This document shows, piece by piece, positions 7,514-42,546 of a DNA stretch of 64,000 nucleotides. The stretch spans positions 4,238,029 through 4,302,028 of the forward strand of contig NZ_CP007440.1 in the NCBI RefSeq assembly GCF_001579845.1, read 5' to 3'. The DNA is from Rhodoplanes sp. Z2-YC6860 (GTDB taxonomy: Bacteria > Pseudomonadota > Alphaproteobacteria > Rhizobiales > Xanthobacteraceae). Position 1 is the first letter of the stretch. The number at the start of each line of letters is the position of its first letter. Both the position numbers and the translations under genes were made by a program. The notes beneath the pieces were generated by a model. That model did not search any database, was not told the DNA's origin, and saw nothing but the letters and a program-made list of their open reading frames with translations.

Positions 7514-8671
7514 TCAGCGGCCCCACAGCTTCTTGCTCGCGATTTCGGCACCCTGGACCATCGCGTCCATCTTGGCCCAGACGATGCTCGCGTGAACCTC
7601 ATCGGAGCCGGCAAAGCTGGCAAAGCCGCAGTCGGTGCCGGCGATCACGTTCTCCCGGCCCATGAATTCGGCAAAGCGCAGGATGCGTTGGGCGACCAGC
7701 TCGGGATGCTCGACCAGCACCGATGAATTGGTGATGACGCCGGGAATGAGCACCGTGTCCTTGGGAAGCTTGGCCTCTTTCCACACCGCCCATTCGTGCT
7801 CATGGCGCGGGTTCGACGCCTCGAACGAGAAGGCGCCGGCGCGGATTTGCATCAGGATGTCGATGATGTGCTTGACTTCGAGGTCGTGAATTCGCGGCCC
7901 CATGTTGATGCTGTAGCAGGTGTGGTAGCGGATCTTCTCGGTGGGAATGCCGCGCAGCGCGTGGTTCAGCGCCTCGACGCGCTTGCTTGCCCATTTGCGG
8001 ATGTCGTCGACCGACATTTTCGGGTCCATCAGGTAGTAGCTGACGAGCCGCGGATCGTCGACCTGCACCAGGAAACCTGCGTCGACGATCGTCTTGTATT
8101 CGACGTTCATCGCGTCGGCGATCGCGAGCAGGTATTCGTCGTTGCTGGCGTAGTATCTGTTTTCGTTCCAGTCCTCGATGTTGGCGGGCGAAATGCACGG
8201 CACGAACACCTCGGCGGCGTTGACACCCTTCAGCGCGCTCTTGAGCGTTTCGAGCTCGGCCTTCAATGCAGCCTGACCTTTGTAGGTCAGTGGCGAGGTG
8301 CAGGCCATCTGCACCTGCTTGGCACGCGGCGAGGCGCTTTCCTGCTGCTTGTAGTAGTCGGGAAAGCTGATGGCCTCGCGCGACGACAGCCAGGCGTTCG
8401 GGCGATGTCCGTGGGGCTCGAGACCGCCGAGCCGCTCGCGGATGTAGGTGACGAAGCTCGGCTTGCCGAACTCGCCGTCGTCGATGACGTCGAGGCCGGC
8501 GTCGACCTGTTGATGCACGATCTCGGTGACGGCTTCCTTGATGCGGGAGGCGAGCTTCGGCTCGTCAACCGGTTCGCCGCGCGCCTTGGCACGGACCATC
8601 TGCAGCAGATCGGCGGGGCGCGGCAGGCTGCCGGCGTGGGTGGTCAGGATACGATCGGTTGAACGACGCAT
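7514..8671 (-). CDS. MetE C-terminal-like zinc methyltransferase family protein (UROD/MetE superfamily)
   Basis: The 385-residue protein has the fold and zinc site of cobalamin-independent methionine synthase C-terminal domains but lacks the MetE N-terminal half. The expected ligands are present: His250 and Cys252 in YHTCYS, Glu284 in FSFEAS and Cys348 in GTDCGF. The N-terminus has TTHAGSLPRP and GLDVIDDGE, typical of the stand-alone branch, which also includes epoxyalkane:coenzyme M transferase. It is therefore likely to move a methyl or alkyl group to or from a thiol rather than make methionine. It lies 19 bases upstream of a TctC gene in one direction of transcription (TctC first), suggesting a shared substrate. 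The substrate is unknown. Confidence 0.75.
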   Translation of the reverse strand: MRRSTDRILTTHAGSLPRPADLLQMVRAKARGEPVDEPKLASRIKEAVTEIVHQQVDAGLDVIDDGEFGKPSFVTYIRERLGGLEPHGHRPNAWLSSREAISFPDYYKQQESASPRAKQVQMACTSPLTYKGQAALKAELETLKSALKGVNAAEVFVPCISPANIEDWNENRYYASNDEYLLAIADAMNVEYKTIVDAGFLVQVDDPRLVSYYLMDPKMSVDDIRKWASKRVEALNHALRGIPTEKIRYHTCYSINMGPRIHDLEVKHIIDILMQIRAGAFSFEASNPRHEHEWAVWKEAKLPKDTVLIPGVITNSSVLVEHPELVAQRILRFAEFMGRENVIAGTDCGFASFAGSDEVHASIVWAKMDAMVQGAEIASKKLWGR

Positions 8672-30609: not shown

Positions 30610-30846
30610 ATGAAAACCTTGGTTCTCGCCGCCGCGCTTTCGCTGGTGGCCACCAGCGCATTTGCGACATGCAAGAGCGACGCTGCCGACAAAAAGCTCG
30701 CTGGCGCGGCGCTGAAGAGCTTCATGACGAAGTGCGAGAAAGACGCCCAGACGGCGTGTGACGCCGACTCGGCAAAGCAGAAGCTTGCCGGCGCGGCCAA
30801 GACCAGCCACACGAAGAAATGCGTGACGGACGCCGTCGGCAACTGA
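30610..30846 (+). CDS. PsiF-like repeat protein (78 aa, secreted)
   Basis: GGGAGAGG lies upstream of the ATG. After a signal peptide (MKTLVLAAALSLVATSAFA) come two copies of a Cys-containing unit, KLAGAALKSFMTKCEKDA and KLAGAAKTSHTKKCVTDA, which is the PsiF repeat. PsiF was found as phosphate-starvation inducible in E. coli; its biochemical role is unknown. Four Cys, two per repeat, could make two disulphides in the periplasm. Confidence 0.75.
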   Translation: MKTLVLAAALSLVATSAFATCKSDAADKKLAGAALKSFMTKCEKDAQTACDADSAKQKLAGAAKTSHTKKCVTDAVGN

Positions 30847-31029: not shown

Positions 31030-32610
31030 ATGGCGGACGACGTTTTCCAGGACGACAAGATCTTCATCGGCAAAAGCGGAAAGCCGGAATATCTGGCGCT
31101 CAAATTCGGCAATCGCCACGGGCTCGTGACCGGCGCGACCGGCACCGGCAAAACGGTGTCGCTTCAGGTGATGGCTGAGGGCTTTGCCCGTGCCGGCGTC
31201 CCGGTGTTTGCCGCCGACATCAAGGGCGACCTGTCCGGAATCGCGGCCGCTGGCGAGGCCAAGGATTTCCTGGTGAAGCGAGCGAGCGATCTCGGCTTCA
31301 AGTACCAGCCCGACGAATTCTCGGTGATATTCTGGGATCTGTTCGGCGAACAAGGCCATCCGATCCGCACCACCATCATGGAGATGGGGCCGCTGCTGCT
31401 GTCGCGGATGCTCAATCTCAATGACGTGCAGGAGGGCCTGATCAACATCGCCTTCAAGTACGCCGACGACGATCCGCAGCTCGGCCAGGCCGATTCCAAC
31501 GGCCTCGTTGACCTCAAGGACCTCCGCGAGCTCCTGAACTACCTGAGCAAGAACTCCAAGGACATCAGCGCTCGATACGGCAACGTCGCCCAGGCCACCG
31601 TGGGCTCGGTGCAACGCGCATTGCTGATCCTCGAGAACCAGGGCGGCGCCAAGTTCTTCGGCGAGCCTGCGCTCGACATCAACGATCTGATGAAGAAGGA
31701 CCGCGACGGCCGCGGCTACATCAACATTCTCGCGGCCGACAAGCTGATGGAGAATCCGCAGCTCTACGCCACCTTCCTGCTGTGGCTGTTGTCCGAGCTG
31801 TTCGAGAAGCTTCCCGAAGTGGGCGATCTCGACAAGCCGAAGCTCGTGTTCTTCTTCGACGAGGCGCACCTTCTGTTTAACGATGCGCCGCCGGCACTCC
31901 TCACCAAGATCGAGCAGGTAGTGCGGCTCATTCGGTCCAAGGGTGTCGGCGTGTTCTTTGTCACGCAGAACCCGCTCGATGTTCCCGACAAGGTGCTGGC
32001 CCAGTTGGGCAACCGCATCCAGCACGCGCTGCGCGCCTTCACGCCGCGCGACCAGAAGGCGGTGCGGGCCGCGGCCGACACCTTCCGCCCGAACCCCAAG
32101 CTCGACACCGCGCAAGTCATCACCGAGCTGGGCAAGGGCGAGGCGCTGGTGTCATTCCTGGAGGGCAACGGCACGCCATCGATCGTCGAGCGCACCATGA
32201 TCGCGCCGCCGGCGGCGCGGATCGGGCCGGTGACCCCCGAAGAGCGCAAGGCGGTGATTGCGCAGAGTCCGGTCCGGGGCCGATACGATCAAGCCATCGA
32301 TCCCGAATCCGCCTACGAGATCCTTCAACGCCGGGTGCAAGAGCCCGCGGGCGACACGCCGTCCGGCGGTTCCGCCGCTGGCGGGCCGCCAGCCGACGCG
32401 CCACAACCAGGCTCCGGCCGTGGTTGGGGGGACGTGGTGGGCGGCGTGCTCGGCAGCGTCCTGGGCGGAAGCGGCAGCTCGCGCGGGCGCATGACGACAG
32501 GCGAGGTCGTGGTACGGCAGGTGGCCCGCTCGGTCGCCTCGCAGGTTGGCACCCAGGTCGGCAGAGCGTTGATCCGCGGTGTGCTCGGGAGCCTTACCGG
32601 CCGCCGTTAG
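31030..32610 (+). CDS. HerA/YjgR-like ATPase (DUF853)
   Basis: The 526-residue protein has Walker A GATGTGKT at residues 35-42 and Walker B LVFFFDEAHLLF near 280, with VFFVTQNPLDVPD as the sensor-like segment. This is the DUF853/YjgR branch of HerA-FtsK type ATPases. A Gly/Pro-rich linker (about 435-470) leads to a short C-terminal helix with VARSVASQVGTQVGRAL. Its E. coli relative has no settled role; NurA-type partner genes are absent here. ATG at 31030 is used; a GTG 12 bases upstream is possible. Confidence 0.85.
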   Translation: MADDVFQDDKIFIGKSGKPEYLALKFGNRHGLVTGATGTGKTVSLQVMAEGFARAGVPVFAADIKGDLSGIAAAGEAKDFLVKRASDLGFKYQPDEFSVIFWDLFGEQGHPIRTTIMEMGPLLLSRMLNLNDVQEGLINIAFKYADDDPQLGQADSNGLVDLKDLRELLNYLSKNSKDISARYGNVAQATVGSVQRALLILENQGGAKFFGEPALDINDLMKKDRDGRGYINILAADKLMENPQLYATFLLWLLSELFEKLPEVGDLDKPKLVFFFDEAHLLFNDAPPALLTKIEQVVRLIRSKGVGVFFVTQNPLDVPDKVLAQLGNRIQHALRAFTPRDQKAVRAAADTFRPNPKLDTAQVITELGKGEALVSFLEGNGTPSIVERTMIAPPAARIGPVTPEERKAVIAQSPVRGRYDQAIDPESAYEILQRRVQEPAGDTPSGGSAAGGPPADAPQPGSGRGWGDVVGGVLGSVLGGSGSSRGRMTTGEVVVRQVARSVASQVGTQVGRALIRGVLGSLTGRR

Positions 32611-34007
32611 ACCGGCCCGCTCGGGCTGCGAGTTTCCTGATGCGCGGCGCGTCGCCTTGCCGCCGCTTCGCTGATAAGGCTGGCCCAGAAGCGCAGATCG
32701 GGGTCGTCGGGGAAGGCATTGCAATAATGGGCCACCCCGCCTTCGCCATTTGCGAGCAGCCGGGAGGCCGCTGCGATCTGCTCGTTCGCTGCTGCGCGCC
32801 GTCGTGAAGCTTCGACAGGCTCGGTCAGGGCGGTGGCGAATGGGCCTGCTTGGTCGCCCAGGCTGCGCACGAAATTTGCCGCCGCACTGTCACCCGCTCC
32901 TGGACATGGCTCGCGCGTCCTGGGTGGCTCATCCATCATCGCCCGCAGCAACTCGTTCGATACCCGCGACCAGCGCGCAGGCTCAAATTCCGCACGCGCA
33001 AAACGGCGTGCCTCCTCGCCGAGGCGGCAGCGCAAGCCCGTATCGTGGGCAAGCCGCTCGATCGCGTCCGAATACCCTTGCTCGGTCGTCACCACGAGTC
33101 CGGTGCGCTCATTCTCGACGAGATCGCGCAAGCCGCCATGGGGGAAAACCACCGGCGGCACGCCGACCCACATCGCCTCCTGCAGAGCCTTTTCGCTGGT
33201 GGCGTAGGTGTCGTCCGCCAGCGGGTAGCCAAAGATGTCAAACTTCTCCAACGCCTCGCGAATGTTTTCGATCACTCCGCGAATAGCGACGCGATCGGCC
33301 ATACCAAGCGCCGAGAAACGAGACCGCAGGTGGGCTTCGCCGCCTCCGCCACCGCACACGACGAACCGGATCTCCGGAGCACGGATCGCCGCGCTCATCT
33401 CCGCAAAACGCGGATGCATCTTGGTCTCGTTGACGACACCGATGTAGCCAACACAGATGCCGTCATGTTGGCGAGGCACAAAGCCGTCCAGTCGGCTCAT
33501 ATCCGCAACACCTGGAACGTAATGGATGGGAATGTCGTGTTGCCTCGCGTGTCGCGCGCCGGCGCTTCCAAGAGTCCGTCTTGACGTCACAACCAGCCGG
33601 TCTCCGAAGAGCACGACATCTTCGGTCAAAACCTGAGGCGCGTGGATTCCCAAGACATGAGACCAGACCACCACGCGCGCCGGTGGGAACGCGAGCGTGC
33701 GCAGCAAGGTAGCCATAGCGGGATGATTCCAGAAATGGATCTGGACGATATCCGTCTCTTCGATGAGCCGCGTGAGCGCGTCGCGCTCGGGCCGAATGAC
33801 CAATTCGACGCCGAGTTTCCGCGCGGCCACCAGCATGTGCAAGGATACCGGCACGTCCAGGATGACGACGGCATGCCGGTTCGCGGTGCCAACGACGCGC
33901 TCCTGGGCGACGAATGCGAGCAGCGAACGCTCCGGACCACCGCCGATGAAGCGGGGGATAATATGGAGTATCTTCAGCGCGGTCCCAGATTGCATTTGCG
34001 CGTTCAA
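32607..34007 (-). CDS. Family 4-type glycosyltransferase (466 aa)
   Basis: The GT-B fold is indicated by ILHIIPRFIGGGPERSLLAF at the start (nucleotide-sugar side GGG loop), IDVIWSH-like VVWSHVLG, and the C-terminal donor site FGYPLADDTYATSEKALQEA with VVFPHGGLRDLV. The last 110 residues are an unusual extension rich in Ala/Arg with AHYCNAFPDDPDLRFW. It is the last gene of the minus-strand operon; its start overlaps the previous stop by 4 bases and its stop overlaps the HerA-like gene's stop. Sugar donor and acceptor are unknown. Confidence 0.8.
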   Translation of the reverse strand: MNAQMQSGTALKILHIIPRFIGGGPERSLLAFVAQERVVGTANRHAVVILDVPVSLHMLVAARKLGVELVIRPERDALTRLIEETDIVQIHFWNHPAMATLLRTLAFPPARVVVWSHVLGIHAPQVLTEDVVLFGDRLVVTSRRTLGSAGARHARQHDIPIHYVPGVADMSRLDGFVPRQHDGICVGYIGVVNETKMHPRFAEMSAAIRAPEIRFVVCGGGGGEAHLRSRFSALGMADRVAIRGVIENIREALEKFDIFGYPLADDTYATSEKALQEAMWVGVPPVVFPHGGLRDLVENERTGLVVTTEQGYSDAIERLAHDTGLRCRLGEEARRFARAEFEPARWSRVSNELLRAMMDEPPRTREPCPGAGDSAAANFVRSLGDQAGPFATALTEPVEASRRRAAANEQIAAASRLLANGEGGVAHYCNAFPDDPDLRFWASLISEAAARRRAAHQETRSPSGPV

Positions 34008-34693
34008 GGCGCGCCCCGCCGCCGGCGGTCGATGTAACGACGCGCCACCTGCAACAGCTCACGGCGGTAGGTCGCAACGTCGGTTGAAAGGCTGGTGTGG
34101 CGCACCCCCTTCAGCAGCACGGTCTCGTCCAATACGTCGAGCCGCACCGCCGACTGCACGAGCCGCACGAACCAATCGCTGTCGGCTCCGACGGTGAGGG
34201 TCTCATCGAATGGACCGACCGTCTCGAAGCATGAGCGGCGCACCATGAGCCCGCCTGGTGTATACGCGGCCTCGACGCGTCCGAGACGCGAGGCCTGCTG
34301 CGGCGTTGCCTTATCCGACGCGACGAGCGTGCGGCGCAATTGGCCGATCACCGCACCGCAAGACGGTTCCGCGGCGAGATGCTCCAGGCGCGCCGCAAGC
34401 GCACCTGCCGTCCAGCAATCGTCTGCGTCGCAGAATGCAATGATCTCGCCGGCTACTGCGCGAATGCCTTGATTGCGCGCGGCGCCAAGCCCACGGCCCT
34501 CCTGCGCAATCACACGTACACTGGCAAAAGTGCGGGCAAAGGCGGCACTGCCGTCCTCGGAGCCACCGTCGACGACGACAATGTCGCTTGGCGGCGGGTT
34601 TTGATGGCTCACGCTCTCGATGGCGGCGGCAAGCGTACGTGCGCCGTTCCGCACGGGTATCACGATGCCAACCGAGAGATCACTCGCTTTCAT
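34004..34693 (-). CDS. Family 2 glycosyltransferase (229 aa)
   Basis: The GT-A core is clear: SVGIVIPVRNGARTLAAAIE, DIVVVDGGSEDGSA, RGLGAARNQGI and IAFCDADDCW with the DxD metal motif. The start at 34693 puts the first strand at residue 5, as usual; an ATG 24 bases upstream is possible. The ADSDWFVRL segment is the usual acceptor-side motif. Overlaps the next gene by 4 bases (ATGA). Confidence 0.8.
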   Translation of the reverse strand: MKASDLSVGIVIPVRNGARTLAAAIESVSHQNPPPSDIVVVDGGSEDGSAAFARTFASVRVIAQEGRGLGAARNQGIRAVAGEIIAFCDADDCWTAGALAARLEHLAAEPSCGAVIGQLRRTLVASDKATPQQASRLGRVEAAYTPGGLMVRRSCFETVGPFDETLTVGADSDWFVRLVQSAVRLDVLDETVLLKGVRHTSLSTDVATYRRELLQVARRYIDRRRRGAP

Positions 34694-34726
34694 ATTTCCG
34701 TCCCAAGAGGCCGGCAATGCCGCACA

Positions 34727-35866
34727 TCAGTCGCTCCCCATAGGAGTGGCGGCGGGTTGAACGGAAATCTCGGTGTGTCGCGGCGGTTGATTATGATTGC
34801 TCGCGCGACGCAGCGCATCCATTAGATCGCGAAGCGGTTCCATTGGCGCGCCCGCGGCACAGAAATGCTCAAGTGCCGCGAGTGACTCATGCGGTTCACG
34901 GAAAGGCGCCAGGTGATGGCGCAAGCGCCGATCCGCTGACCAATGCTTCGCGGCGGCAAAGTGGGCAGAGCGCGCAAGTCGCCGGACCAGGCTGGGTTCA
35001 CGATACGAGGCCATCAACTCGAACAGCATCTGCCAACGTTCGAGCCGGCCATCGTCGACGCAACGATCCGCTTCGACGCCCAACGGCGACGACCCCACCG
35101 GCGTCAGCGTCCCGATATCGCCCGCAAAGTGGGTGTGAGTGGAGTCAGGTCCGAACCCTATGTTCGCGACCATATTCACAGAAGGTACAACCGATAAGCC
35201 GCCCAACAATGCTTTCTTTATCTCCCAATCCGTATCCCAAGCTGATGATTTATATTTTATGGTGAGTTCCTGCAGCATCAGGAAATTGTCGAGTACGATG
35301 GGCTGGACCGCGGAAGTCGCGGCGGTGCGCATGATATCGTCGGGCGTGCCCGGCATCGTCACGTTACGCTGCCAAGCACGTCGCCACGTCGCCCAACCCC
35401 AAGCACTGGCGCGGTGAAGAAGGCAGTGACCATCACCCGACTGGGTCCAACGGCCAAGGTGATTCCGGCCAGACACGTGCATCACTCGAGGCTCGTCGCG
35501 ATAGCGATCGAGCATTTGTGCGCACCAGGGAAAGAAAGAAGGGTCAGGGACGACGTCGTCTTCAAGCACAATCGCCTCGGAGATGTGCTCGAATGCCCAG
35601 GTGAGCCCGGTCCTGATGCGCGGATCACAACCGAGGTTGGTCTCCGCAAAATGACGAATGACACGGCATGAACCGTCCAGGCGTTCGACAATCTTGCGTG
35701 CGGCGATGCACCGCGGAATGTCTTCCGGGTGGTCGGGGCGCGGCCCGTCGGCGATGGCCAACACGAGTTGCGGCCGGACGCGGCAGAGAATGTCTACGAC
35801 GCGGGCAAGCGATGCCGGGCGATTGAACAGGAAAAGCACGACCGGAACAGCGTCGGCGGCCGTCAT
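34727..35866 (-). CDS. GT-A glycosyltransferase-like protein (HlpA/GNT-I-like, 379 aa)
   Basis: The N-terminus reads VPVVLFLFNRPASLARVVD and EAIVLEDDVVPDPSFF, the LEDD metal site seen in proteins annotated 'glycosyltransferase' or 'hemolytic protein HlpA-like'. WGWATWRRAWQ is the second conserved block of that group, and the C-terminal third is helical. It probably adds a sugar to a surface glycan. It lies 33 bases before the GT2 gene in the same operon. Confidence 0.7.
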   Translation of the reverse strand: MTAADAVPVVLFLFNRPASLARVVDILCRVRPQLVLAIADGPRPDHPEDIPRCIAARKIVERLDGSCRVIRHFAETNLGCDPRIRTGLTWAFEHISEAIVLEDDVVPDPSFFPWCAQMLDRYRDEPRVMHVSGRNHLGRWTQSGDGHCLLHRASAWGWATWRRAWQRNVTMPGTPDDIMRTAATSAVQPIVLDNFLMLQELTIKYKSSAWDTDWEIKKALLGGLSVVPSVNMVANIGFGPDSTHTHFAGDIGTLTPVGSSPLGVEADRCVDDGRLERWQMLFELMASYREPSLVRRLARSAHFAAAKHWSADRRLRHHLAPFREPHESLAALEHFCAAGAPMEPLRDLMDALRRASNHNQPPRHTEISVQPAATPMGSD

Positions 35867-35902
35867 CGTGTTGCACCCCAGACTAAAGGAGATGCGTCGC
35901 GT

Positions 35903-36685
35903 TCATCGGTTGCGTGAAACGAACGCAAGATCATGGTCGAGCCCGCCGGTCAGGTGTACCAGAAAATTCGCATCGAGCACCTCACGAAATCGCTTGAGAT
36001 CTTCCCAGCGCTCTCGCGCGCCCGTATTTGGCGGCGGCGCGCCCCATTTGGCCGTTCGCCGATGGTGCGGCCAAAGGCAATTCCATGAAGAGGGCAGGAA
36101 CTGGGCGAGCCCCCTTGTCTGCAACTCGAAGCTCAGCATCGCCTGTTCGAACTGCAGGCCCCAAGGGTGGCCGCGCTGGGTCTCGATGTGCTGCGCGACA
36201 AGACCACGGAAGAGCGTGCCGTGGATTTGCGGGGCGCAGATGAACATCCCGCCGTTGATGACGCTTTCAGAGTCGAGCGCAAAGCCACCAAGCGCATGGT
36301 ACTCGCGTGCAGTTGGCACCATGCCGTTGACGACCTGAAACCTCCGGCGGTCTTCGCGGGTTGGCTGGCACCACTCGTCCACCACGCCGATCTTTGTGCC
36401 GAGATCAAGCGTGTGGAATGGCGGTGCCTTCGAGCTTATCAGGACATCGACGTCCAGCACCATCACTCGGTCATAGCTGCGGACCCGTTCGTGAAACGGA
36501 ACACGCAGCGGCTCGAAGTTGATCACTGGCTCGCCTGCGTCTCCTGGTCCGGCGAGATAATCGTCGAACACTACGAGATCGTATCCGTGCCGCGCAACAT
36601 ATCGCTCCACGGACGGTCTGAAGATCGCGGCGTATGCCGATTGATGGTTTTCGCCGATCGCGACTGTTGCAATAGCACATTTCAT
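35903..36685 (-). CDS. Glycosyltransferase-like protein with DVD motif (260 aa)
   Basis: MKCAIATVAIGENHQSAYAA starts the first nucleotide-binding strand. YDRVMVLDVDVLISSKAP carries a DxD motif of the GT8/GT34-like type, and INGGMFIC with the later HLTGGLDHD complete the pattern. Exact family is uncertain. It sits 10 bases behind the HprK-related kinase gene, so the kinase and this enzyme are made from one message. Confidence 0.65.
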   Translation of the reverse strand: MKCAIATVAIGENHQSAYAAIFRPSVERYVARHGYDLVVFDDYLAGPGDAGEPVINFEPLRVPFHERVRSYDRVMVLDVDVLISSKAPPFHTLDLGTKIGVVDEWCQPTREDRRRFQVVNGMVPTAREYHALGGFALDSESVINGGMFICAPQIHGTLFRGLVAQHIETQRGHPWGLQFEQAMLSFELQTRGLAQFLPSSWNCLWPHHRRTAKWGAPPPNTGARERWEDLKRFREVLDANFLVHLTGGLDHDLAFVSRNR

Positions 36686-36695
36686 TGTCGAAAAC

Positions 36696-37718
36696 TCAGG
36701 ATGCGTTGCGCCGCTCGGTTCCCTTCAGGCCCGCGGCCTGCGTGATGATCGCACGCACTGCCGGCTCAAGCGCCTCGAATGCCCAGCTTACCGGCAGCCG
36801 GTATGCGGGGAGCCGACGCGCAAGCGCCGCGACCGATGCCAGCCACATTGCCGGCGGGCTGGTGCGGCAGACCACAGGCGCAGCCGTCGACCCGAGCGAA
36901 GCCAGGATCTCCGCAGGCTTTAAGCGCTGCGGTTCCGGATGACCGGTGATGGGTGGCGCAAGCACGATCATGGCCACGATCGGCGCCGATCGCATGACCT
37001 TCAGCCGAGGCTGGACCGCAAATACAGCCTTGTGTTTGGGAGTAACGCCGAGCACCGGCCACGAATTCGCGCCAAGCGCCAAGGCACTATCGTTATTCAG
37101 CTTCGCAGTGGCGAAAAGGCAGTGGACGGTGGGGGTGGCGCTATCATTTCCACCATCCGCTTCGACCAGGACAAGGTCGTCGCCGAGAAAACCGGCGCCG
37201 GCCATTGCGCAGGCGAGCACGGTCGTAGATTTGCCAAAGCCGCTGCCGCCCACAATCAGCGCCGCTGCGCCATCGTAGGCAACGGCGCCCGCATGCAGGA
37301 CCTGCGTTCGCGGACCGCCGAGCCAGGCTGCGAGCGCGTAGGACCCGGGATGAGCACGAAAATCTCCCGCCGCAAGCGCATCACGTCCGGCGCGCAGCTC
37401 GATCCCCAAGTCCGGACGGTAGGACTCCAAACTTGGGGGATCATTCTGCACAACGGCAAATCCGCCGCCGCGGATCCGGTAGGCACCGGTGCTCCCAAAC
37501 GCGTGCGGGCGCCACGCGTCATTCTCCTCGACTATCGTCCAGCGTATGTGTCTTCCGCCAATGGGGGGACTTACCGCGAGGTGCGCGACTGCCGGCATGA
37601 TCGCCGCGAGCGCGTATTCGCTCGTCGCCTCGATGCGAAGGTTCCGGCCGGCAACCGAAACGGTTACGCCGAGGCTAGGCCTCACTGTCGGAAGCTGGCC
37701 GTGGCCAGCCGGTCGCAT
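36696..37718 (-). CDS. HprK-related kinase A
   Basis: The 340-residue protein has the P-loop VGGSGFGKSTT (about 156-166) preceded by LHAGAVAYDGAAALI and followed by GDDLVLVE (180-186), the HPr kinase pattern of P-loop plus Asp-Asp. It lacks the N-terminal sensor domain and C-terminal HPr-contact region of true HprK. NCBI names such proteins 'HprK-related kinase A' and links them to a PqqD-like partner, here the preceding gene. The target could be a small protein, sugar or peptide; unknown. The ATG at 37718 overlaps the partner by 44 bases; a GTG at 37685 would overlap by 11. Confidence 0.75.
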   Translation of the reverse strand: MRPAGHGQLPTVRPSLGVTVSVAGRNLRIEATSEYALAAIMPAVAHLAVSPPIGGRHIRWTIVEENDAWRPHAFGSTGAYRIRGGGFAVVQNDPPSLESYRPDLGIELRAGRDALAAGDFRAHPGSYALAAWLGGPRTQVLHAGAVAYDGAAALIVGGSGFGKSTTVLACAMAGAGFLGDDLVLVEADGGNDSATPTVHCLFATAKLNNDSALALGANSWPVLGVTPKHKAVFAVQPRLKVMRSAPIVAMIVLAPPITGHPEPQRLKPAEILASLGSTAAPVVCRTSPPAMWLASVAALARRLPAYRLPVSWAFEALEPAVRAIITQAAGLKGTERRNAS

Positions 37719-38097
37719 CGACTTCGTGGATCGGATCCATCGCGATGATCTTCGCGATATCGTCGTACCGTTCGAGCAGCGGTGGCGTGAATTGCGACGG
37801 CCAAGGTGATGGTGGGGCGTCAGTCCGTCGTTCTTCGTTCGCCGGAACGAGAATCTCGGCTGTGCGAAGGTCATTGAGGAATGTCCGCGTGGCGGCGCCT
37901 GCGTCCGAGCCGAAGCGGGAAGCGACCGTCTCGCACAGTTCCTCTAGCTGGGCCCCACCAACCAAATGGCTCCAAACAACAGAGGCAAAACCCGCGAGAA
38001 GAAGTATATGTCCTGTTTCCGCATCGAACAGAATGGTTTCGTTTTCGATGGTTTCGTGCGGAAATCTCGAGGAGTTAACGACAAGGCATTCTTGCAT
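37675..38097 (-). CDS. PqqD-like peptide chaperone (HPr-rel-A system type)
   Basis: The 140-residue protein holds one PqqD/winged-helix domain: ENETILFDAETGHILLLAG, then VVWSHLVGGAQLEELCETVA and FLNDLRTAEILV. PqqD-type domains bind leader peptides in RiPP pathways. No radical-SAM, cyclase or transporter gene is beside it, only the HprK-related kinase, glycosyltransferases and the divergent nucleotidyltransferase. It is the first gene of the operon and follows a good promoter. No precursor peptide was found nearby. Confidence 0.7.
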   Translation of the reverse strand: MQECLVVNSSRFPHETIENETILFDAETGHILLLAGFASVVWSHLVGGAQLEELCETVASRFGSDAGAATRTFLNDLRTAEILVPANEERRTDAPPSPWPSQFTPPLLERYDDIAKIIAMDPIHEVDATGWPRPASDSEA

Positions 38098-38205
38098 TGT
38101 TGTTCTTGATCTCGTCCTGATCGGGCGGCACAAGAGGTCCGGCTGACCTCGCGGCGCAAAGTCCGCAGAATGCTTCTTCCTGCAAAATGCCTTAGCCTAG
38201 ACTTC

Positions 38206-38241
38206 TCAGAATAATTGTAGCCAACCCACCTTTCGAGTCAA
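38206..38241 (-). promoter_or_regulatory. Sigma-70-like promoter of the PqqD-HprK-glycosyltransferase operon
   Basis: On the minus strand TTGACT (38241-38236) and TACAAT (38219-38214) are 16 bases apart, close to consensus for the housekeeping sigma factor. Transcription would start near 38206, leaving a leader of about 110 bases before the PqqD-like gene. Confidence 0.5.
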
Positions 38242-38315
38242 TCGCGCGAGCGCAGCGTATATTCTAGGCACGGGTCTTGCGCTCTTCGCGAGACCACAAA
38301 AGAGTCAGGATCCAG

Positions 38316-40007
38316 ATGTTGTCGCCGGGAGAAACGTTGATGCTTACGGCTGCGCTCAACCCCGACCCCAACATCGCTGCCCGCAGCTGGCGAGAGTGGG
38401 CGGCGGCCATGCCTTTGGAAGACGTTACCTCGCCGGAGATGAGATTGCTCCCGGCGGTGCACGCTAATCTCGCCAAACTCGTACCCACGCTCGATCTGCC
38501 GAAGAAGATTCATGGCCTGGCTAGAATGACCTTCGCCAAATCGTGGCATCTGGTGTTTCGCAGCTCCGGGATCATCGCAGAATTGAGCAGGTTTTGTCCG
38601 GTCCTGCTGGTTAAGGGGCTCGGTATGCTCGTCAGGTTCGACGCCTGGTCGTCGCGGCCTATGGCAGACATCGACATCCATGTCCCTCCTTCGGCGCTTG
38701 GTGGCGCTCTCGATATTCTCGCACAGTCCGGGTGGAAGCCTTGCCACGGTATGACCTTCGAGTCGCTCAAACATCGGAGCTCGTTGCGTCGAGAGAGTTG
38801 GAATTTCGACAAGGGCCACGGAAACCTTGACCTCCATTGGCGGTTGTCGGCGGCCGACATGGATGGCACACTCGAGTCTCAAATGTGGCAGACCGCCGAG
38901 CCGGTTGAGTTTGCCGGTCAAAAGCTGCTGCTTCAAAGTCCCGAATATGCTTTTGTCACCTCGCTGCACCACGGCTTCTTGCGAGGTCACCGTTCAGACC
39001 TCCTGCAAACCGTCGTTGACGCCGCGTGGTTGCTGCCCCACTGCAATGACGACGTGCTGTTGCGTCTGATCCGCAAGGCTGACCTATCGAAGCAGGCCGC
39101 GGACTTAACGGAGTATCTCCGCGTGGTTGGCGCCCCCTGCAAAATCCCGACTTCGACGAGAGGAGGCGAGGAGGGGCGTCAAACGCGACCGTCCCACAGG
39201 CCGCTTCCTACCGAGACGGCGCTGCTGCATCGGCCATCGCTCTATCGTCTCTGGAATGCGCTGGGCCGTCGATCGAGGATCGAGCACGTCCTTCTCAAAT
39301 GGATGGGGCCCTTCTCGAAGCCTCTGAATCCGCGGCCGCCCCGGTCGGAATATGATTTACGCGACTGTGCGATGATCGACGAGATCGCCGGACCCGGGTG
39401 GTCCTGGCCCGAACCGGACCACTCCTGCTTCTGGACAGACCGCATCGATGCGCGATTGCTCATCCCGCTGAGCAGCCTCGATGATCATCTCATTATTCTG
39501 TCCTTACAGGACCGCGTGAGCGCGAATGCCCAGATTGATATTTTCGCCAACGGCGTCTTCATCACCCGCAAGCACCTCGGGGCTCGCCTTGCTTCCGCCG
39601 CTTGCTGTCTGATGGTTCCGCGACGCTTGCTTTTCGGGCCTTGGGTCGAGATCTCGTTGCGGCCGAGGCCATATCTTGGAGCGTCTGAGGATCGCTCCAC
39701 CGCTTTGAGCGCACCGGCTCGTCGGTTGCGCGTCCTGAATCTGCAGAACCTCACAGACTTTTTTAGCGGGCACGAAGTGCCGCAGCCTTATGTGCGGATC
39801 CTCAAGGGCGAGCAGCCTTACGTCAGCAAGTTCGCGCGCATCGAGGCCAAGATAAAGAATTCTCCGTTAAAGGGATCCAGCGAACTGCCTGCCAAGTTCG
39901 ACCCGCTGAAATACATATTTTCCTACCCGGACCTCTTCGAGCATGAAGTCGACCCTTACGAGCATTTTCTAATGTTCGGTCGTCATGAAAATCGAGCCTA
40001 TTACTAG
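38316..40007 (+). CDS. Nucleotidyltransferase-family protein with C-terminal glycan-associated domains (563 aa)
   Basis: Residues 97-123 contain LLVKGLGMLVRFDA and RPMADIDIHVP, the NTP_transf_5 pattern (KG-x-x-L...DxDhhV). This is the nucleotidyltransferase-like family found with HprK-related kinase A and PqqD proteins. A middle part (about 350-480) reads WSWPEPDHSCFWTDR and is beta-rich, resembling glycan-linked beta domains. The last 40 residues (FDPLKYIFSYPDLFEHEVDP) match the 'YPDV' repeat often attached to glycosyltransferases. It is divergent from the operon, with 218 bases between. Start: ATG at 38316 or one 24 bases later with GGGAG. Confidence 0.7.
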   Translation: MLSPGETLMLTAALNPDPNIAARSWREWAAAMPLEDVTSPEMRLLPAVHANLAKLVPTLDLPKKIHGLARMTFAKSWHLVFRSSGIIAELSRFCPVLLVKGLGMLVRFDAWSSRPMADIDIHVPPSALGGALDILAQSGWKPCHGMTFESLKHRSSLRRESWNFDKGHGNLDLHWRLSAADMDGTLESQMWQTAEPVEFAGQKLLLQSPEYAFVTSLHHGFLRGHRSDLLQTVVDAAWLLPHCNDDVLLRLIRKADLSKQAADLTEYLRVVGAPCKIPTSTRGGEEGRQTRPSHRPLPTETALLHRPSLYRLWNALGRRSRIEHVLLKWMGPFSKPLNPRPPRSEYDLRDCAMIDEIAGPGWSWPEPDHSCFWTDRIDARLLIPLSSLDDHLIILSLQDRVSANAQIDIFANGVFITRKHLGARLASAACCLMVPRRLLFGPWVEISLRPRPYLGASEDRSTALSAPARRLRVLNLQNLTDFFSGHEVPQPYVRILKGEQPYVSKFARIEAKIKNSPLKGSSELPAKFDPLKYIFSYPDLFEHEVDPYEHFLMFGRHENRAYY

Positions 40008-40104: not shown

Positions 40105-40977
40105 TCAGCCGGCGGTGCGGCGGAACTCCGAAGGCGTCACGCCAAGAACCCTGCGGAAGGCTCTCGAAAGCTGAATGCTGCTATTGAATCCGGTCTGCGC
40201 CGCGACGTCGGCGATCGAATGCTTCCGCCCGGTCAGCATCTCCTTGGCACGTTCAACGCGCCGGTGAATCATGAATTGGTGCGGCGGTACGCCAACCGCC
40301 TGCTTGAACGAGCGGATAAAATGAAACCGCGTCAGGTCGACGAGCTTGGCGAGCTCGGCAATCGTGGTCTTCTCGTCCAGATGGCTTTCCATGTAGTCGA
40401 TGACGAGCTTGATCTGACTGGTCGAAAGACCGGCGCCGTCCGGTGAACGCCGCTCTGCACCGGACGCGATCCGAATGAGATCGAAGGATAGAAGTTCCAC
40501 CACAGTCTCGGCATAGCCGGCGATGTCATGAGCCGGATCGGTCAGAATCGTGTGCAGCCGCAACATGGACCAGCGCAGCATCTGGTCTTCGAATTCGATG
40601 TGTGGCGGCAGCTGGGTGAGATCGACGGAAGAGATGCCCTCGTCGGGCGGGCTGAAGCCGATCGACATGATGGTCGCGGGTTTTTCGATCTTGCACCAGC
40701 CTGCAATATCGCAATCGCCCGGACTGAAGGTGAGTTTGTTGCGGAGATCTTTCAGGGTGCTGCGTCGTGCTTCGGGCGACACGGTTTCGCCGTCGGTACG
40801 GTAAAGGTCCAGCAAGCTGACATGACTTGTCGAAGGCGGCAGGCGAAATGCGAACTCGGCGCGAGCCGGAATTCGCACATATTCGGCGGTGAAGCCCGGC
40901 CATGACCGGCGCTTGAGTTCGGAAACATCAATTGGCGTGCCGGTCGGACGCCGCGTACGTTCGATTTGCCCGCTCAT
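40105..40977 (-). CDS. AraC-family transcriptional regulator (290 aa)
   Basis: The C-terminal 100 residues hold the two helix-turn-helix motifs: TTIAELAKLVDLTRFHFIRS and HSIADVAAQTGFNSSIQLSR, ending FRRVLGVTPSEFRRTAG. The N-terminal part is a cupin-like sensing domain without a clear family. It is transcribed away from the AT-richer gap before the integrase. Its target is unknown; the nearest genes are the surface-glycan locus and the integrase. Confidence 0.9.
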   Translation of the reverse strand: MSGQIERTRRPTGTPIDVSELKRRSWPGFTAEYVRIPARAEFAFRLPPSTSHVSLLDLYRTDGETVSPEARRSTLKDLRNKLTFSPGDCDIAGWCKIEKPATIMSIGFSPPDEGISSVDLTQLPPHIEFEDQMLRWSMLRLHTILTDPAHDIAGYAETVVELLSFDLIRIASGAERRSPDGAGLSTSQIKLVIDYMESHLDEKTTIAELAKLVDLTRFHFIRSFKQAVGVPPHQFMIHRRVERAKEMLTGRKHSIADVAAQTGFNSSIQLSRAFRRVLGVTPSEFRRTAG

Positions 40978-41361
40978 GTTTCAAGTTTTTGACCGGCCCA
41001 CATGGGTGCCGCTCAATGCATTTTATTTTATAGTTCAGCACGTACACGTGCCTGTTTTGTAACATCGGGGAGATTGAACGAAAGGCGCCGGCCAATCAAC
41101 GAGGGAGCGGCAGACCGGCGTCAACTCATGGCAGCCCTGCAAACCGCTCAGAAAGCTGCACGAAATTAAATTTTGCTAATCTGGGGGCCATGCAATTGCG
41201 GCCGCGAAGCGAAATATGTGATACTAAGTGCGGCGCAGAGTCACATATTGCTGATGTTTGTCCATTTCTAAGTCACGAACTACTATTTCAATATACTTGC
41301 TGGCTGTGGATTGATTGACGCGCGGTTGTCCGCTGTTTGGCTTTCGTTAATAGTTTTTTCC
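40978..41361. other. AT-richer intergenic region before the integrase, with an inverted repeat
   Basis: No gene was found in these 384 bases. ATATGTGA (41214-41221) and TCACATAT (41241-41248) form an exact 8-bp inverted repeat with a 19-base spacer. Composition is more AT-rich than the neighbours, as often seen at recombination sites or in transferred DNA. No tRNA is adjacent. Confidence 0.5.
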
Positions 41362-42546
41362 ATGCCACGCGCTCTCCTGTCCGCCGCGTTTGTGAAGTCA
41401 GCCGTGTGTCCCGACGGCTTGAAGAAAGTCGATTTCTTCGACAGCGAGCAACGGGGATTCATGCTCGAAGTCCGGCGTTCCGGCGGCAAGACCTACTATC
41501 AGCGCTACACCGACGAGCGCGGCCGCGAGCGCCAATTCAAGATCGGGCCCGCCGATGTGCTCTCACTCACGATGGCGCGCCGCAAGGCGCGCACAGCGGC
41601 AGCCGAGGCTCTGGTCGGCTCCGATCCGCAGGAGCGCCGCGCCGAGATGCGCACCATCCCGACTCTCGCCGAGTTGGTCCGGGACCGCTACTTGCCGCAT
41701 GTGAAAAGCTACAAACGGAGTTGGTGTACGGACGAGACCGTGCTGCGGATCCATATCCTTCCGGCGCTCGGATTTCAGTATGTCGATCTCGTGCGCGCCG
41801 AACCGATCGCGGCGCTTGTCGAGCGCATGCGTGAGAAGGGCTACGCCACCGGCACGACCAATCGTGTGGTGATCGTGCTGCGCCACATTTTCAATCTGGC
41901 CCGCAAATGGCGCGTGCCGGGTGTCGGCGAAAATCCGACAGCGGGCATCAACCTCGCACCGGACGTCAAGCGCGAGCGATTCCTGTCGCTGGAAGAAGCG
42001 CAGCACCTGATCGCATCCATCGAGCAGGACGAGAATCAAGTCGCAGCCAAAGCCATCATGCTGCTGCTTCTGACCGGAGCGCGGCGTAACGAAATCACCC
42101 ACGCGCGCTGGGACTATCTCGATTGGGAAAAGCGGACCTTGCTGGTGCCGCTGGCGAAGTCCGGAAAGCCCAGGTCGATCGCGCTCAACGCCGCGGCGAT
42201 CGAGCTGCTGCGATCCATTCCACGCCTCGATCTCAATCCGTACATCCTGCCGTCGCCGCTAACCGGCGAGCCGTCGCCGTCGCTGTTCTTTCCATGGCAA
42301 CGCATCAGAACGCGCGCGGGCTTGCCCGATCTCAGGCTGCACGACCTGCGGCATTCGTTTGCAAGCTTCCTGGTGAACAAGGGCGTATCGCTCTATGTCG
42401 TGCAAGGGCTCCTGGGGCACGCCCACACCAAATACACCCAGCGCTACGCCCATCTCACGCCAGACACCTTGCGTGATGCCGCCGAAACGGTCGCCAGTGT
42501 GATCGCGGGCGCCGGCGCGCCGACGCAGGGCGCGAGCTCGATCTAA
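41362..42546 (+). CDS. Tyrosine recombinase / phage-type integrase (394 aa)
   Basis: All catalytic residues are visible: Arg241 in LTGARRNEI, Lys266, His327 and Arg330 in LHDLRHSFAS, His353 in LLGHAH and Tyr362 in TQRYAHL. The N-terminus has the arm-binding domain of P4/CP4-type integrases (KVDFFDSEQRGFMLEVRR). The gene is complete. The ATG at 41362 lacks a good ribosome site; upstream alternatives are no better. No companion phage genes lie beside it, so it is probably the relic or left end of a small element. Confidence 0.9.
   Translation: MPRALLSAAFVKSAVCPDGLKKVDFFDSEQRGFMLEVRRSGGKTYYQRYTDERGRERQFKIGPADVLSLTMARRKARTAAAEALVGSDPQERRAEMRTIPTLAELVRDRYLPHVKSYKRSWCTDETVLRIHILPALGFQYVDLVRAEPIAALVERMREKGYATGTTNRVVIVLRHIFNLARKWRVPGVGENPTAGINLAPDVKRERFLSLEEAQHLIASIEQDENQVAAKAIMLLLLTGARRNEITHARWDYLDWEKRTLLVPLAKSGKPRSIALNAAAIELLRSIPRLDLNPYILPSPLTGEPSPSLFFPWQRIRTRAGLPDLRLHDLRHSFASFLVNKGVSLYVVQGLLGHAHTKYTQRYAHLTPDTLRDAAETVASVIAGAGAPTQGASSI

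Follow-up and report, generated by a model that had tools for sequence, protein, structure and literature searches.

A PqqD-like protein with a conserved leader-like tail in Rhodoplanes sp. Z2-YC6860 belongs to a recurrent gene set with a possible role in phosphate-linked glycosylation

Introduction

What could be made by a gene cluster that places a PqqD-like protein beside an HprK-like kinase, a nucleotidyltransferase of the NTP_transf_5 family and several putative sugar-transfer proteins? Such a cluster lies at 32607–40007 of the DNA stretch analysed here (the window: 64,000 nucleotides, positions 4,238,029–4,302,028 of the 8.19 Mb single-contig genome of Rhodoplanes sp. Z2-YC6860). The answer that we favour, with about even confidence and on the basis of sequence comparisons, is that the locus may represent a widespread module whose PqqD protein, a lasso-B1-type RRE (recognition element of ribosomally synthesized and post-translationally modified peptides, RiPPs) with a leader-like tail, would scaffold phosphate-linked glycosylation. 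None of the specific system models in the libraries searched recognises the combination of tailed PqqD, kinase and sugar-transfer set, which is found in many phyla. Solving this module could reveal a bacterial route of phosphate-linked glycosylation and yield, in the tail, a marker by which the module is readily spotted in genomes.

A conserved tail on the PqqD-like protein

The PqqD/RRE-domain protein (140 aa) is encoded on the minus strand at 37675–38097, from a proposed ATG at 38097; its longest open reading frame (ORF) opens at TTG 38133 (37675–38133). It reaches 35.2 bits against PF05402 (cut-off 23.4), which bears out the PqqD assignment made in an earlier reading of the sequence alone. 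That sequence-only reading overlooked the C-terminal tail, which, judging from the sequences, appears to be the one conserved element resembling a peptide that we found in the set. The tail consists of 30 residues with the consensus FxxPxLExY(T/D)DMxDLLLLDP(I/V)H(E/D)VDExGWP, and in the window it occupies residues 103–132 (37702–37791, minus strand; FTPPLLERYDDIAKIIAMDPIHEVDATGWP). When 74 tailed proteins were aligned, all eight invariant columns (D113, D121, P122, H124, V126, G130, W131 and P132) fell inside the tail, with a mean information of 3.15 bits in the tail, 1.91 in the domain and 0.81 in the linker. Because the 80 loci described below were selected by the tail itself, this conservation is partly built in and is inflated by search bias; GWP, however, was not part of either search pattern, and a search that started from the kinase (see below) is a partial control.

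Two other PqqD proteins of the same genome share 31% and 23% identity with the window copy, and all three end with DPIH followed by V and GWP. A profile of these three proteins gave 27 matches, the three starters included, in 20 of the 297 genomes of the order; the full tail was present in 26 of them and shortened in the remaining one (L045; L numbers denote our loci). We then scanned GTDB species genomes for the tail alone, using an alignment of six tails, and obtained 482 pattern stretches, of which 349 were confirmed and 80 kept. A PqqD-domain match was found in 79 of the 80 kept frames with a hidden Markov model (HMM) built from 77 of those same frames, and the Pfam PqqD model matches 72 of the 74 tailed proteins, 71 of these 72 coming from the 80 loci. 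The sole tail without a PqqD domain in frame (L120:1541–1837) lies in a short frame with an upstream stop, perhaps a broken gene. The titles of the tail-carrying records name Alpha-, Beta- and Deltaproteobacteria, Nitrospirota, Bacteroidetes, cyanobacteria, Chloroflexi, Acidobacteria, Planctomycetes, Verrucomicrobia, Clostridia and Actinobacteria, as well as one Woesearchaeota record; many of these records are metagenome bins whose taxonomic titles may be misassigned. A phage-borne set was rejected, as viral contigs gave 89 pattern stretches, none of them confirmed. We recognised no description of the tail or the module in the open-access literature, a coverage outside which most subscription papers fall, and four tail peptide strings were absent from the same literature.

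The tail is not uniform at its end. In a second type the leader-like half is retained and the end reads LALDPPLPAAPR or near it; this form occurs in six genomes of two families (G472, G568, G688, G690 and G644, i.e., five of the ten genomes searched in one family, plus G145) at the loci L152:8102–8557, L153:7149–7556, L045 and L156–L158. No small precursor was evident in the type-2 cluster L152, where the genes are tightly packed. More protein follows the tail at L076 and L089. At these two loci (L076:2–1675 and L089:4084–4890), which are two contigs of one planctomycete bin, the tail is followed by a second PqqD-like stretch; L076 joins the tail, this second stretch and the kinase in one chain.

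Search for a separate precursor

The sequence-only reading had found no precursor peptide gene, and this statement held over a much wider sample. Among 874 small ORFs (25–115 aa, mostly outside called genes) collected near the 80 loci and in the window, no family matched at least three other loci; the most widespread similarity extended to two other loci and seemed to reflect composition, while a divergent precursor would be missed by this comparison. A tail profile run over 12 genomes, as a search for a free-standing tail peptide, gave 21 matches, 20 of them on PqqD frames and the other weak (E 0.012).

These results bear on an alternative which we regard as possible, albeit with clearly less confidence than the scaffold reading: that the substrate is the tail. 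A single PqqD chain would then combine a recognition element with the precursor, the FxxPxL half being the leader and DPIHEVDExGWP (DPPLPAAPR in type 2) the end that is phosphorylated, sugar-capped or otherwise modified. This would account for the missing precursor and for two kinds of end behind a common leader-like half, and it is favoured by the confinement of the invariant columns to the tail, by the almost exclusive occurrence of tail-profile matches on PqqD frames and by the single chain of L076. On the other hand, the tail contains no invariant Ser, Thr or Tyr (position 112 is Ser or Thr in 50 of 74 proteins and position 111 is Tyr in 41 of 74), so that an HprK-type kinase would have no universal hydroxyl there. 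Furthermore, the second block is replaced in the six type-2 genomes, and no peptidase is found among the best 25 of 57 families matched by 63 neighbour proteins. If it were true, a peptide-primed, phosphate-linked glycan system would exist across many bacterial phyla, perhaps also in archaea.

Recurrence of the gene set

On the minus strand of the window, the PqqD gene is followed by those of the HprK-like kinase, a 379-aa and a 260-aa protein, a GT2 and a GT4 glycosyltransferase, with the NTP_transf_5 gene divergent. This gene set is more than a chance neighbourhood, because it recurs, at least in part, at two further loci of the same genome and in many other genomes. At L014 the PqqD, kinase, GT2 and NTP_transf_5 genes are consecutive, with GT4 and GT2 genes ahead of them; at L015 a kinase–GT2 fusion lies about 7 kb from the PqqD gene, with more GT2s, a DegT-type aminotransferase and a GMC oxidoreductase.

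The NTP_transf_5 protein of the window (563 aa; 38316–40007, plus strand, proposed ATG; ORF from TTG 38277) scores 67.3 bits against PF14907 (cut-off 31.2), in agreement with its first assignment, and aligns with that of L014 across nearly the whole length (46% identity). Both proteins (38316–40007 and L014:7062–8810) carry about 300 extra C-terminal residues ending in FDPxxYxxxYxDLxxxExDPYEHxxxxGxxENR, and a Pfam scan of this extension gave no match. The GT2 protein (34004–34717, minus strand; PF00535, 95.7 bits) belongs to a module-associated subfamily, scoring 250 bits against an HMM of module-locus GT2s that includes this protein itself.

Among the 80 tail-bearing loci, the kinase was found at 70, NTP_transf_5 at 65, GT2 at 69 and all three at 58, counted within 8 kb with HMMs built from the same loci, which had been selected by the tail. 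These counts agree with the co-conservation expected from the sequence-only reading. Many of the misses sit at contig ends; we therefore recounted the 56 loci at which 6 kb or more of downstream sequence was available and found the kinase at 52, NTP_transf_5 at 49 and GT2 at 51. When the ORFs at 83 loci (the window, L014, L015 and the 80 tail loci) were clustered, the families that covered most loci were GT2 (69), tailed PqqD (69), NTP_transf_5 (63), kinase (56), a mixed group of ABC transporters (35) and GT4 (20). Of 202 other neighbour proteins, 63 were compared with Pfam, and ABC_tran (12), ABC_membrane (11) and Glycos_transf_1 (9) appear among the best 25 of 57 families; some epimerases are also neighbours of the module. 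In four loci with Chloroflexi-type titles (L061, L067, L072 and L105) a tailed PqqD occurs with ABC transporter genes, and at least one of kinase, NTP_transf_5 and GT2 is missing.

The adjoining GT2, GT4 and ABC genes and some epimerases would also suit an ordinary exopolysaccharide locus in which a nutrient-sensing HprK/PqqD pair has come along for the ride. The RefSeq names on a Crinalium plasmid, which are generic (only PqqD family protein, nucleotidyltransferase family protein and HPr kinase; the PqqD there is tailed), are compatible with this explanation. However, the co-conservation over many phyla and the fusions between kinase and GT2 are hard to attribute to coincidence, and we consider such a locus very unlikely.

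As a control that does not start from the tail, we searched 385 genomes of the class and 398 of the phylum with the kinase alignment A9, and scored at most five candidates in each genome. Twelve kinases in 11 other genomes reached at least 160 bits, and each of the 12 had a tailed PqqD nearby. Nine of these tails were of type 1 (L127, L128, L129, L147 and L181–L185), one was the variant DIVHDTDDAGWP (L132), and two, at L130 and L131 (completed as L153 and L152), had the type-2 end. Three kinases of the Rhodoplanes genome are likewise accompanied by tails. Among the 17 kinases below 100 bits, a PqqD match of at least 40 bits was found at four (L135, L138, L143 and L144), none of them tailed, and the remaining ones had PqqD matches of at most 26 bits or none.

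The kinase

The HprK-like kinase (329 aa) is encoded on the minus strand at 36696–37685, with a most likely GTG start at 37685 that overlaps the PqqD stop; the longest ORF runs from 37874. The start codons of the kinase, PqqD and NTP_transf_5 genes were assigned by reading the sequence. With the shorter proposed start, the kinase gave no Pfam match at E 0.001. The earlier designation as an HprK-related kinase of the HPr-rel-A type can be kept in part: the protein is HprK-like, weakly, and it stays below the cut-offs of PF07475 (17.8 vs. 33.3 bits) and of TIGR04352, HprK_rel_A (25.4 vs. 200). Three central kinases of other loci that were scanned score 29.9–37.0 bits against the latter model.

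The alignment of 47 relatives contains the hallmarks of the HPr kinase superfamily, namely the P-loop, the catalytic His and the Asp pair: H131, G149, G151, K152 and D170 are invariant, and D169 and S153 are conserved in at least 90% of the sequences. Indeed, the A9 profile matches solved HPr kinases down to E 3e-7 (1jb1). The kinase and GT2 form one protein at 13 of the 80 loci and at L015. PqqD and kinase distances are correlated over 45 loci (Mantel r 0.70; none of 2000 permutations was as high), a correlation that shared ancestry could in part produce.

Relation to lasso peptide tailoring

The profile of the 74 tailed PqqD proteins matches the lasso RRE TbiB1 (5v1u) with E 3.4e-18 over profile positions 11–91, and further 9x90_B, TfuB1 (6jx3, E 3.3e-9) and 9x8z_B; these matches cover the domain, not the tail. 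A match to tektin-3 (E 4e-4) was discarded as due to chance. The NCBIfam lasso chaperone models remained below cut-off for four central members of the tailed PqqD family (best 59.8 vs. 80 bits). In the tail, a [FYW]xxPxL-like motif is found within 22 residues ahead of DP(I/V)H in 61 of the 74 proteins. Lasso leaders carry YxxPxL at positions −17 to −12, according to the part of the source used here (PMC10368454).

In the portion of a second study drawn on here, PadeK and its relatives phosphorylate the C-terminal Ser of the lasso precursor, and PsmN is associated with hexoses attached to the phospho-Ser made by PsmK (PMC9266682). The His, Lys and two Asp of our kinases appear to fit the motif of the lasso kinases described in this portion, the equivalence of the four positions being inferred from sequence (PMC9266682). 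The sequence-only reading had suggested a peptide substrate, phosphorylation and sugar addition, a combination that would fit, by analogy, the PsmK/PsmN precedent as that portion presents it (PMC9266682).

Overall, the module has in common with the lasso set (B1, PadeK/ThcoK/PsmK and PsmN) a lasso-B1-type RRE, an HprK-like kinase with His, Lys and the Asp pair, a nucleotidyltransferase-type protein (PsmN being likened by its description) and the leader-like FxxPxL, here in the tail. The module differs in that the leader-like segment is joined to the RRE, the C-terminal Ser is not conserved, and a GT2 of one subfamily is usually close, being fused to the kinase at the 13 loci mentioned above. 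Neither an asparagine-synthase cyclase nor a leader peptidase is present in the Pfam results of 20 window ORFs, and neither is among the best 25 of 57 families matched by 63 of the 202 neighbour proteins of the other loci; a lasso cluster was thus rejected, since cyclase, peptidase and precursor were not found.

A lasso-like cluster does occur elsewhere in the Rhodoplanes genome (L016:6094–10951, within C1:6140000–6158000), with Asn_synthase, an untailed PqqD, an HprK-like kinase and NTP_transf_5. It includes a precursor-like ORF of 57 aa (8395–8568, minus strand) with the motif WERPAL and a C-terminal Ser; no ORF like it was found in the window module. One may ask whether the target of the module is a peptide or protein encoded at an unlinked site of the genome, in the style of lasso tailoring, the tail being an intramolecular placeholder for the leader. 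Such an arrangement is suggested by the lasso type of the nearest solved RRE and by L016, where kinase and NTP_transf_5 accompany a separate precursor-like ORF ending in Ser; however, the tail profile of 12 genomes gave a single match without a PqqD domain in 21, a search that would miss leaders unlike the tail, and we judge an unlinked target improbable.

A possible mechanism

According to the sequences, tail and RRE form one protein; the kinase, NTP_transf_5 and the GT2 subfamily accompany it; the kinase carries the His-Lys-Asp-Asp set; and kinase–GT2 fusions occur in several phyla. This conserved set points to a machine whose probable task is to attach sugars to a phosphorylated target. In the scaffold reading, the tail would dock on the RRE or on the kinase or GT2; the RRE would bring the acceptor, and the kinase would phosphorylate a hydroxyl of this acceptor first. 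The NTP_transf_5 protein could then place the first hexose on the phosphate, as reported for PsmN on the serine phosphorylated by PsmK, and the GT2, here possibly together with the GT4, would lengthen the sugar. Finally, an ABC transporter may export the product; such transporters occur at many module loci and were not among the 20 window ORFs scanned. A tail that docks or mimics a leader would explain why it can be invariant without supplying a hydroxyl acceptor, and also why its second block is exchanged in type 2.

Several observations weigh against this reading. The FxxPxL motif is degenerate in some alphaproteobacteria and lacking at L182–L184, and in BsfA, as far as the part of the study used here reports, alanine changes in YxxPxL left phosphorylation intact (PMC10368454). 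The portion of the source considered does not decide between PsmN and a host enzyme as the one that adds the hexoses (PMC9266682). Two loci (L067 and L105) have a tailed PqqD and no kinase, NTP_transf_5 or GT2 within 8 kb despite 7–10 kb of downstream sequence. As for the kinase-first control, A9 was built from kinases beside tailed PqqDs, at most five candidates were scored per genome, and four of the 12 kinases (L182–L185) lie in genomes already found by the tail profile.

Comparison with other systems

An HprK-like kinase beside a PqqD-like protein is a feature that the module shares with the HPr-rel-A system (TIGR04352 kinase, TIGR04353 PqqD). Identity with this system was rejected: while PqqD and NTP_transf_5 passed their family models, the window kinase remained far below TIGR04352, as given above, and its PqqD partner also stayed below PqqD_rel_X (TIGR04353, 24.2 vs. 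35 bits). The SynChlorMet proteins ScmC and ScmD are related through a weak PqqD similarity and a similarity to ScmC in one of the three central kinases, all scores being far below the cut-offs. The SynChlorMet cassette contains radical SAM genes.

The best NCBIfam match of the window GT2 is the mycofactocin protein MftF (TIGR03965; 84.1 bits vs. a cut-off of 280). Mycofactocin biosynthesis also uses an RRE protein; the window differs in having a kinase instead, with no radical SAM family among the 20 ORFs scanned. A link between RRE and glycosyltransferase is further shared with possible new RiPP clusters listed by RRE-Finder, which are direct RRE–glycosyltransferase fusions in the part of the study used here (PMC7470986). 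A role in anti-phage defence was rejected, as PADLOC assigned no family to seven proteins, four of them from the window.

Other genes of the cluster and its surroundings

The assignment of four glycosyltransferase-type proteins to the cluster was upheld for two of them. Besides the GT2, the accessory GT4-type protein (32607–34007, minus strand) exceeds the Pfam cut-offs (PF13692, 64.6 bits; PF00534, 63.9 bits). The other two gave no Pfam or NCBIfam match at E 0.01, and calling them glycosyltransferases is a guess, the likeness having been seen by eye only: a 379-aa protein (34727–35866, minus strand), with BLAST relatives at five other loci, and a 260-aa protein with the aspartate-rich stretch DVDVLI (35903–36685, minus strand), with relatives at L095 and L098. 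An intergenic stretch of about 218 bp (38098–38315), as read directly from the sequence, separates the PqqD gene from the divergent NTP_transf_5 gene.

A phage-type integrase (41311–42546) and an AraC regulator (40105–40977) adjoin the cluster, and the stretch that contains them is possibly mobile; a tRNA search of the window found none. On the other side, 30610–30843 encodes a small, secreted-looking repeat protein of about 77 aa that contains Cys, which we take to be perhaps PsiF-like.

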